The notes beneath the pieces are model-generated. The model did no database searches. It saw nothing but the letters and a program-made list of their open reading frames with translations, and had not been told where the DNA came from. From assembly GCA_012270555.1 (NCBI GenBank), contig JAAXIC010000004.1, positions 1-43,131 of the forward strand: 43,131 bases of DNA. Direction: 5' to 3'. The position numbers and the translations under genes are program-made. Positions 5,601 through 41,273 of this stretch are shown here, one piece after another. Every line of letters begins with the position of its first letter. Position 1 is the stretch's first letter. Source of the DNA: Chloroflexota bacterium (GTDB taxonomy: Bacteria > Chloroflexota > UBA11872 > VXOZ01).

Positions 5601-6453
5601 TCCGGCTGCTGACGAGGCCGTCGCTTCCAGCGGAATCTTCGCCTACGGCGCAGTCGTCGCTTCCAGCGCAGTCGTCGCTTCCAGCGTAGTCGTCGCCTCC
5701 GGCAAGTCCGCCGAATTTGCGCTCGCGGCGGCTGTAGTTTGTGAGTGCGGCGTAGAACTCCTCGCGTCCGAAATCCGGCCAGTAGACCTGCGCCGCGTAG
5801 TACTCGGCGTAGGCGGCTTGCCAAAGCAGGAAATTGGAGAGCCGCATTTCGCCGGCCGTGCGGATAACCAGATCGGGGTCAGGCAAATCGCGGGTATAGA
5901 GATGCCGCGTAATTGTCGCTTCGGAGATGCGGGAAGCAGGCACGCCTTCCGCGACGATCTCTCGCACGGCATCGACGATTTCGCTGCGCCCGCCGTAGTT
6001 GAAGGCGAAGTTTATCGTGAGCCGGTCGTTGCCGCGCGTCGCTGCCTCAAGCTGGTCAATCGCCACCTGCAAGGTGGAAGGCACAGCGTCACGCCGTCCG
6101 ATGGAGCGAACTTGGATCTCGTTTTCCATGATCGCGCCCTGTTCGCGTTCGATTGAATCTTCGAGGAGCGTCATGAGCCCGCTGACTTCCGCCTCGGGGC
6201 GCGCCCAGTTTTCCGTGGAGAACGCATAGAGCGTGAGGACCTTGACGCCGAATTCCACCGCTGCCTCCGCCACTTCGCGCACGCAGCGCGCGCCCGCGCG
6301 ATGTCCCTCCAAACGCGGCAGTCCGCGCTGCGCCGCCCACCGACCGTTGCCGTCCATCACAATGCCGACGTGGACGGGCGTTACGGGCAGCGGGGGAAGT
6401 TCCTCTGCCACTTCGGGGGCAGTCTTCAGCGATTTGGCAGGTGTCGGTTCCAT
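5581..6453 (-). CDS. uppS: Isoprenyl diphosphate (undecaprenyl-PP type) synthase
   Basis: cis-Prenyltransferase of 290 aa that makes the polyprenyl carrier lipid for cell-wall sugars. Visible motifs are HVGIVMDGNGRWA, GHRAGA, TLYAFSTENW, the C-terminal DPDLVIRTAGEMRLSNFLLW and AEYYAAQVYWPDF. The catalytic core ends near FGGLAGG, and a tail of about 35 residues follows, built from six-residue GSDDxA repeats. In DNA this is an 18-bp unit repeated three times at 5648-5701. The family does not need such a tail. An N-terminal extension of about 25 residues (APEVAEELPPLPVTP) is also present. Confidence 0.95.
   Translation of the reverse strand: MEPTPAKSLKTAPEVAEELPPLPVTPVHVGIVMDGNGRWAAQRGLPRLEGHRAGARCVREVAEAAVEFGVKVLTLYAFSTENWARPEAEVSGLMTLLEDSIEREQGAIMENEIQVRSIGRRDAVPSTLQVAIDQLEAATRGNDRLTINFAFNYGGRSEIVDAVREIVAEGVPASRISEATITRHLYTRDLPDPDLVIRTAGEMRLSNFLLWQAAYAEYYAAQVYWPDFGREEFYAALTNYSRRERKFGGLAGGDDYAGSDDCAGSDDCAVGEDSAGSDGLVSSRNGKAKQ
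5648..5701. repeat. Three 18-bp tandem repeats inside uppS
   Basis: Units start at 5648, 5666 and 5684. The first two are identical and the third has three changes. On the coding strand each encodes GSDDxA, giving uppS an acidic C-terminal tail. The in-frame length makes slippage without frameshift possible. Confidence 0.85.
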
Positions 6454-6487
6454 CGCTCGTACTCAGTCAACCTAGGTCTGATGTTTC

Positions 6488-6548
6488 GCCCTCACCCCCG
6501 TATCGAGTACGGGGCAAGCTCTAGCCCTCTCCCCCAGGAGAGGGAACA
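6488..6548. repeat. Family C palindrome with nested 24-bp module
   Basis: A CCCTCACC...CTAGCCCTCTCCC / GGAGAGGGA repeat is interrupted at 6497-6520 by a palindromic module with arms CCCGTA and TACGGGG ending in CAAGCT. The element lies between frr and uppS, inside the housekeeping operon. The same module interrupts a different repeat at 41012-41035. Confidence 0.8.
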
Positions 6549-6591
6549 CATTCGGAGCCTTTGTATCTGCCAAACCCATCTAAATGCGTTA

Positions 6592-25990: not shown

Positions 25991-26009
25991 ACGACTTGCC
26001 GTGTCTGCG

Positions 26010-26058
26010 AAGATGGATTCTGCGCCCCGGCACGGGGCGAGCTTTCGTGGGAATGACG
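26010..26058. repeat. Family E repeat, long form with mini-hairpin
   Basis: AAGATGGATTC, then a GCCCCGGCACGGGGCGAGCT hairpin at 26024-26043, then TTCGTGGGAATGACG. Compared with the short form at 148-179, the hairpin is an insertion just before the CT of the stem. It sits in the leader of the TTR-like gene. Confidence 0.7.
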
Positions 26059-31586: not shown

Positions 31587-31614
31587 GTATCCCAGGCATT
31601 TTCTTTGCAAAGAG

Positions 31615-31846
31615 GCGGGAGACAAGCCCCAATGCTGTCGCATTAAGATTAAGACGGTACGCTCGTTGGGCGCGCTCTGCCCCCTCTCCCTAGGGAGAGG
31701 GCCGGGGTGAGGGGAAATGGCAGGCGCCAACAGGCGGGCGCAGGTTGCAAACCTACGCTACCGGGGATGTGAGGCGCGGTATTCATGCCATTTTGTCCGT
31801 GGGGGCGTTACCCCCTGATGCGACAAAATTGGGGACAAGCCCCCGC
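31615..31846. mobile_element. MITE-like element, copy 1
   Basis: Non-coding element of about 232 bp. Its ends form an imperfect inverted repeat of about 29 bp (GCGGGAG...CCCCAAT..TGTCGCAT). Inside are a family C palindrome (31679-31716) and a family A palindrome (31738-31762). A second, inverted copy at 40908-41164 is about 90% identical by eye. It carries no transposase, so it would need one in trans. With the solo family A copy it makes up most of the 527-bp gap before the sucrase/ferredoxin-like gene. Confidence 0.7.
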
Positions 31847-37341: not shown

Positions 37342-37368
37342 CGGGCCCGGCGTTCAGTTGACAGAGAG

Positions 37369-37418
37369 AAGATGGATTCCGCGCCCCCGCACGGGGGAGA
37401 GCTCGCGCGGGAATGACG
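37369..37418. repeat. Family E repeat, long form with mini-hairpin
   Basis: AAGATGGATTC, a CGCCCCCGCACGGGGGAGAG hairpin (within 37381-37403), then CTCGCGCGGGAATGACG. Same layout as 26010-26058. Confidence 0.7.
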
Positions 37419-40907: not shown

Positions 40908-41164
40908 GCGGGGGCTTGCCCCCAATGTTGTCGCATGCGGGGGCGTTGCCCCCGCGGACAAAGTGGCAATGAATACCGCGCCTCACGTCCCCGGCAGTGT
41001 AGGTTTGCAACCCCGTATCACGTACGGGGCAGGCTCTGCGCCCGCCTGTCGGCACCTGCCATTTCCCCTCACCCCGGCCCTCTCCCCAGGGCGAGGGGGC
41101 AGAGCGCACCCAATGAGCGTACCGTCTTAATCTTGATGCGACAGCATTGGGGCTTGTCCCCCGC
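40908..41164. mobile_element. MITE-like element, copy 2 with nested module
   Basis: Inverted copy of the element at 31615-31846, about 90% identical by eye. The terminal inverted repeats are 29 bp and match at 23 positions, starting GCGGGGG and ending TGTCGCAT. It is 25 bp longer than copy 1; 24 of these are a palindromic module at 41012-41035 (arms CCCGTA/TACGGGG) splitting the internal family A palindrome. It fills half of the 518-bp gap 40756-41273; I see nothing else there. Confidence 0.7.
41012..41035. repeat. 24-bp palindromic module inserted in a repeat
   Basis: It matches 6497-6520 at 21 of 24 positions. In both places removing the module restores an uninterrupted host repeat: GCAAC+CTGCGCCC here, CTCACC+CTAGCC there. 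Confidence 0.75.
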
Positions 41165-41273
41165 TTCCCGATGTCGGGCGCAGGACAGGCTGGGGGCATA
41201 AACACCATCTTGGGCAAGGCGCGTAGCAAGAGAGGGACTGTTGGCAATAAGCAGTCTCGCGCACCCTCGTTGC

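Follow-up and report, generated by a model that had tools for sequence, protein, structure and literature searches.

The spread of very short palindromic repeats is an old open question. One such repeat is SDR5, a small dispersed repeat of Nostoc that was reportedly described by Elhai and colleagues in 2008 and is said to measure about 24 bp. Its insertion takes place precisely between nucleotides 3 and 4 of HIP1 (PMC4390886). REPs are assigned to superfamilies by their GTAG or CGTC tags (Di Nocera et al. 2013, PMC3733652), and TnpA-REP cleaves single-stranded REPs at a CT that flanks the hairpin on its 5' or 3' side and also carries out strand transfer (PMC8266576). REPs are also found nested in palindromes, for example the GTAG-23 repeats of T. 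roseum in CCGSSCC palindromes (PMC3733652), with further cases in A. variabilis and H. neapolitanus. Rickettsia palindromic elements (RPEs), are palindromic and inserted in genes in frame; in the account cited here they are about 150 bp long and occur in Rickettsia only (PMC10969869).

The window analyzed here is the whole stretch of 43,131 nucleotides from a 3.2 Mb Chloroflexota assembly, and it contains two copies of a 24-bp module, M1 (CCCGTATCRAGTACGGGGCARGCT; Table 1). M1 folds into a hairpin with a 7-bp stem when the flanking C is counted (CCCCGTA-TCRAG-TACGGGG), followed by the tail CARGCT; the DNA-folding energy of the hairpin is -6.8 kcal/mol (z -3.5, AA loop variant). The positions of the two copies and their identity at 21 of 24 bases agree with the original prediction, as does the observation that excision of the module leaves intact hosts, GGTTTGCAAC^CTGCGC for host A and CCCTCACC^CTAGCCCTCTCCC for host C. 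These are the only copies in the window at up to three mismatches, and 100 shuffles gave none. Scans of the window for Rfam families at gathering score and for tRNAs gave no match.

Table 1. Features of the window and consensus sequences of the M1 hosts (^, point of insertion)
Feature	Coordinates	Strand	Description
M1 copy 1	41012..41035	+	CCCGTATCACGTACGGGGCAGGCT; within host A, in MITE-like element
M1 copy 2	6497..6520	+	CCCGTATCGAGTACGGGGCAAGCT; within host C
Host A palindrome split by M1	40993..41041	+	REP-like; GGCAGTGTAGGTTTGCAAC^CTGCGC; GTAG tag drifted to GCAG
Host C palindrome split by M1	6489..6546	+	CCCTCACC^CTAGCCCTCTCCC...GGAGAGGG
136-bp segment containing host C and M1	6456..6591	+	between uppS-type gene and frr
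MITE-like element, filled (carries M1)	40908..41167	+	approximate boundaries
Same MITE-like element, empty (without M1)	31612..31846	-	clean 24-nt gap in alignment
Host E variant, shorter hairpin CCCCGGCACGGGGCGAGC	26009..26057	+	CGTC-tagged, REP-like; not counted as M1
Host E variant, hairpin CCCCCGCACGGGGGAGAGC	37368..37416	+	not counted as M1
Host A consensus			GGTAGCGYAGGTTTGCAAC^CTGCGC; starts with GTAG
Host C consensus			CCCTCACC^CTARCCCTCTCCC
Host D consensus			CCGTTCGCC^CTGAGCNTGTCGAAGGGTGAACGG
Host E consensus			GGAYTCCGGC^TTTCGCCGGARTGACGG; other strand starts with CGTC

The source assembly has 75 copies of M1 at up to two mismatches, including 53 at none, and no match to a control pattern in which M1 was read backwards. 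From the flanks of these copies, no fewer than four host palindromes can be recognized that are unrelated to one another (A, C, D, and E). Hosts A and E resemble the two REP superfamilies, as judged from the GTAG start of the former and the CGTC start of the latter on its other strand. Within the source genome M1 takes one position per host family. Each of the three common loop variants, AA, GA, and AC, is found in hosts A, C, and D. The 136-bp segment with host C is missing from four congeners (G001, G002, G004, and G005), where the uppS-type gene and frr abut.

The unique sequences on either side of 24 source-genome copies were placed on the genomes of the two closest congeners, giving 20 sites for comparison. 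At L004, a host C repeat, M1 is present in the source genome (...TTTCCCCTCACC-M1-CTAACCCTCTCCCAGAGGGAGAGGG) and the repeat is plain in both G005 (L283; ...TTTCCCCTCACCCTAACCCTCTCCCTCTGGGAGAGGG) and G004 (L260; ...TTTTTCCCTCACCCTAACCCTCTCACTTTGGGAGAGGG), the difference being exactly 24 bp. The same exact difference was found at L023, a host E repeat that is filled in the source genome (GGACTCCGGC-M1-TTTCGCCGGAGTGACGG) and plain in G004 (L270; GGACTCCGGCTTTCGCCGGAGTGACGG). Three sites are filled in both species compared, L012 and L018 with G005 and L014 with G004. Altogether, clean 24-bp pairs comprise two orthologous, one paralogous, and two gene cases; they are few because most of the sites checked are, in the relatives, without the whole host region and not without the module alone. 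The empty and filled orthologous sites that the original prediction called for were thus found, with exact 24-bp boundaries and with CT or TT to the right of M1, and they support its reading of M1 as a minute unit inserted or removed precisely, with carriage on MITEs adding copies. Two further differences between the species concern the host repeats: at L004 vs L283, the C repeat has a 3-nt loop that reads AGA in one species and the reverse complement TCT in the other, a hairpin loop inversion, and host D with M1 lies at orthologous places in the source genome and G004 in opposite orientation (L027 vs L278), which reflects either separate insertions or an inversion of the repeat as a whole.

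The paralogous pair is formed by the two MITE-like elements of the window. When the filled element is aligned with the reverse complement of the empty one, a single clean 24-nt gap falls exactly at M1, and one unrelated 1-nt indel is found elsewhere. The length difference of 25 bp originally ascribed almost entirely to the module therefore consists of the 24-nt gap, which is the module, plus that separate indel. The window pair belongs to a family of MITE-like elements, about 220-270 bp long and bounded by GGGGACAAGCCCCAATG-type inverted repeats, which also includes L007, L021, and L022; whole elements of this family are absent from relatives at orthologous sites. The members of a second MITE-like family (L002, L003, L019, and L024) measure about 250 bp and have ends that resemble AGACCTTTGCGTAAC...GTTACGCAAAGGTCTC; they contain two C repeats in opposite orientation and are missing from G004 or G005. 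At many of the other sites compared (L002, L007, L013, L019, L021, L022, and L024), the relative lacks the MITE or host region entirely, so M1 also moves as a passenger. MITEs that bring M1 along with them account for part of its copies.

The insertion site of M1 follows a rule. In counts that are inflated by related copies and not fully independent, the base left of M1 is C in 189 of 198 non-redundant contexts and the two bases on its right are CT in 150 and TT in 18 of them, and the host C junction reads CT in all 24 hosts with M1 vs 35 of the 100 listed without it (Fisher 8e-10). In other Chloroflexota, C hosts of the form CCCTCACCCCAGCC^CTCTCCC, which have CCAG and no CT at the usual site, bear M1 at the next C^CT (L138, L147, and L153). 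The insertion point in host E is unambiguous (C^TTTC). In the other hosts the first base of M1 could belong to either side, which limits any target duplication to one base at most. When the flanks are joined with M1 left out, their folding is more stable than that of random C^YT sites of the same loci, with means of -8.7 vs -5.7 kcal/mol at the loci of the source genome and -7.6 vs -5.3 kcal/mol at loci elsewhere (p about 1e-8 and 1e-9). This preference for palindromes could in part be tolerance, given that M1 also occurs in genes.

The 24 bp of M1 correspond to eight codons that are open in all or nearly all frames. In a transposase gene from Dehalococcoidia (L184; GAGGTCAC-M1-CTTCCAGGAAGC, peptide EVT[PYQVRGRL]FQEAR), the insert is exactly 24 bp and in frame, and the Methylobacterium homologue (L323) is uninterrupted. 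Similarly, an IS1380-type transposase (L224) reads LAIQ[SLPRTRYG]VMAHNLAR vs LALAVIAHNLAR in L325, again an exact 24-bp in-frame insert. A candidate case is a tetrapyrrole methylase gene (TP_methylase, L220) with an otherwise complete frame; the stretch in question is lacking in precorrin-2 methyltransferases of known structure, consistent with in-frame insertion. Another candidate is a short phage frame with PVSSTGQA (L321). An insert in a GH3 gene (L141) was set aside as unproven, since the PDB matches do not extend over that place. If M1 is mobile, existing annotations carry its eight-residue translations (PVSSTGQA, RIKYGAGS, PYQVRGRL, and ACPVLDTG).

In a scan with one genome per species, the exact M1 pattern was found at a minimum of 115 loci; by our own calculation, chance alone would give about 0.03 matches in 257 Gb. 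Among the matches listed, the lineages are Chloroflexota, Pseudoxanthomonas, Lysobacter, Syntrophaceae, other Deltaproteobacteria, and Nitrospirae, as well as Brocadiaceae, Bipolaricaulota, Patescibacteria, and Alphaproteobacteria. At least 114 contexts fall into at least 38 flank clusters, which together with the four or more hosts of the source genome shows that M1 is not mostly part of one fixed longer repeat, the possibility raised at the outset. Among Chloroflexota M1 is patchily distributed, occurring in 14 of 301 genomes and in 4 of 179 genera. Pseudoxanthomonas and Lysobacter, both cultivable genera, are represented by isolate genomes, and most carriers are metagenome-assembled. A 30-mer query of plasmid and phage record collections gave no full-length exact match; three exact matches were found in IMG/VR contigs.

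Similar to REPs, M1 is within the 20-40 bp size range, combines a hairpin with a short unpaired end, reaches high copy number, and is non-autonomous; CT lies beside the REP cut site and likewise beside M1. It differs from REPs in having neither a GTAG nor a CGTC tag, its tail being CARGCT with the minus-strand unpaired end AGCCTG (AGCYTG), and in being inserted into REPs of both superfamilies and in frame in genes while remaining identical across phyla; unlike in REP/RAYT systems, many M1 hosts are without a matching resident transposase. M1 has neither the two subterminal hairpins of an IS200/IS605 derivative nor the fixed 4-5-mer target to the left, as it forms one hairpin and its left flank is conserved as C only. 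Nor does it look like a product of IS110, since CT stands on its right only, with no shared two-base core, and TT hosts occur. Like SDR5, with which it was compared by description, M1 is a very small hairpin-type module that inserts precisely into other short repeats at a fixed point, and for M1 both filled and empty sites are seen; the sequences are probably different, and SDR5 is described in cyanobacteria whereas M1 is cross-phylum and occurs at C^YT in palindromes and genes. With RPEs it shares in-frame palindromic gene inserts (two transposase genes, with the TP_methylase gene consistent), although M1 is 24 bp long and spread across phyla and RPEs, in the cited account, are about 150 bp long and confined to Rickettsia. 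It resembles MITEs in being non-autonomous, dispersed, and hairpin-forming, and differs in being several times smaller, without the terminal inverted repeats of a known transposon and without target duplication. Each property of M1 thus has a separate precedent in nested REPs, in SDR5 within HIP1, or in RPEs within genes; we know of no described unit that combines all of them in one 24-bp sequence common to many phyla. A search of paper texts in the open literature, which takes in few subscription papers, gave no match to the M1 sequence or its peptides.

We conclude that M1 is probably a non-autonomous, REP-like mobile unit of 24 bp that inserts at C^YT, frequently within hairpins, and is carried by MITEs as well; the evidence for its movement is comparative. 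The comparisons show that M1 is added exactly between C and YT, mostly CT, with no target duplication beyond one ambiguous base, that it enters several unrelated palindromes as well as genes, there in frame, and that it is widely distributed by horizontal spread. In this reading its spread follows two routes, new insertion at C^YT sites and passive increase when a carrying host repeat or MITE multiplies. Since hairpin-prone CT sites are preferred and no duplication is left, we infer by analogy that a folded single-stranded M1 may be cut and joined beside CT by a nuclease acting in trans, TnpA-REP being the nearest biochemical case. Such an enzyme need not be resident in the genome now.

Another scenario, which we regard as possible rather than probable, has M1 founded by rare insertions and later spread within genomes mainly by recombination or gene conversion between host repeats and by MITE amplification, with no activity of its own today. 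It is in line with the many copies in MITE-like elements that are wholly absent from relatives (the seven loci named above) and with the fixed position per host family in the source genome, and conversion would also yield clean 24-bp changes in orthologous hosts. It leaves unexplained, however, the 38 or more contexts across many phyla, the second C^CT site in host C, the inserts in transposase genes, and the several loop variants per main host. Tentatively, and with a similarly low expectation, one may also suppose that M1 is the first of a new class of mobile DNA. In that case a cross-phylum 24-bp hairpin would be moved at C^YT either by an enzyme not yet described or by host replication or repair, with other palindromic repeats as landing pads and an in-frame eight-residue insert in genes.

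It is rather unlikely that M1 is a REP moved by TnpA-REP/RAYT or another Y1 (IS200/IS605) transposase, with the hairpin cut at CT and rejoined elsewhere. Cutting by TnpA-REP at CT (PMC8266576) and the structure of M1, a hairpin and tail beside CT without target duplication, would fit, but M1 has no GTAG tag, its left end begins directly at the hairpin, and no Y1_Tnp (PF01797) match was detected in 9 of 15 M1-bearing relatives, including G025 with its 106 copies. In the source genome itself, Y1_Tnp gave two weak matches only. Ancestral presence of M1 in the host repeats followed by precise deletion is very improbable: two species share filled sites at L012, L014, and L018, as deletion would allow, but there are no direct repeats around M1 to mediate precise loss, L004 is empty in both relatives, C hosts free of M1 mostly do not have CT at the junction, and copies within genes interrupt motifs that are intact in homologues.

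IS110 recombinases are known to target REPs and use a CT core. The presence of CT at the junction and the preference for REP-like palindromes might suggest that an IS110-family (bridge-RNA) recombinase leaves M1 behind, insertion sequences in REPs being the subject of Tobes and Pareja 2006 (PMC1525189). This origin is extremely unlikely, as there is no CT left of M1, which a two-base core would require, and no match to an IS110 transposase in 7 of 14 M1-bearing genomes, including the source genome with its 75 copies. Neither a Y1 nor an IS110 transposase is consistently present in M1-bearing genomes, and both were rejected as the resident mobilizer. Finally, an adaptor or assembly artefact might be suspected because M1 recurs unchanged across phyla and chiefly in metagenome-assembled genomes, but it is a negligible prospect given the isolate genomes of Pseudoxanthomonas and Lysobacter, the loop and tail variants, the filled orthologous loci L012, L014, and L018 in different assemblies, and the absence of M1 from most of the 301 Chloroflexota genomes.

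In its behavior M1 resembles a mobile DNA unit, among the smallest seen. If it is mobile, some activity in different phyla must cut and join hairpins of 24 bases. M1 offers a sequence-exact test case with defined boundaries, the target C^YT, filled and empty pairs, and many unrelated hosts.

The two shorter hairpins of the window (at 26024 and 37383) had been taken as the same type of module. They do exist, but as a roaming unit they were rejected: in 471 kb of redundant source-genome DNA, all hairpins of the shorter shape are in host E (GGATTCCGCG...), and they are thus a fixed variant of one repeat. Plain E repeats stand at the orthologous places, in G004 for the first site and in G002 for the second, and variation within a single repeat is the better reading of this. 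The shorter hairpins give no support to a general class of such modules.

Some copies of M1 show additional rearrangements. Five in the source genome (L058, L061, L064, L067, and L051) have a further hairpin of 18-20 nt nested within M1's own loop (CCCCGTATC(GTGTCGATACGCTGTATC)GAGTACGGGG), a second level of nesting, and at one orthologous pair (L290 vs L025) this hairpin is present in G005 and absent from the source-genome copy. At L218, M1 is placed at C^TT of an inverted M1 copy, and at L187 and L154 the copies appear to stand in full or partial tandem. Among the other repeats of the window are an imperfect 18-bp tandem repeat (CGTCGCTTCCAGCGNAGT, 5619-5708) close to the 3' end of the uppS-type gene and a 26-nt inverted repeat (96%) formed by the contig ends (1-26 and 43101-43126), so that the assembly probably breaks at a dispersed repeat.
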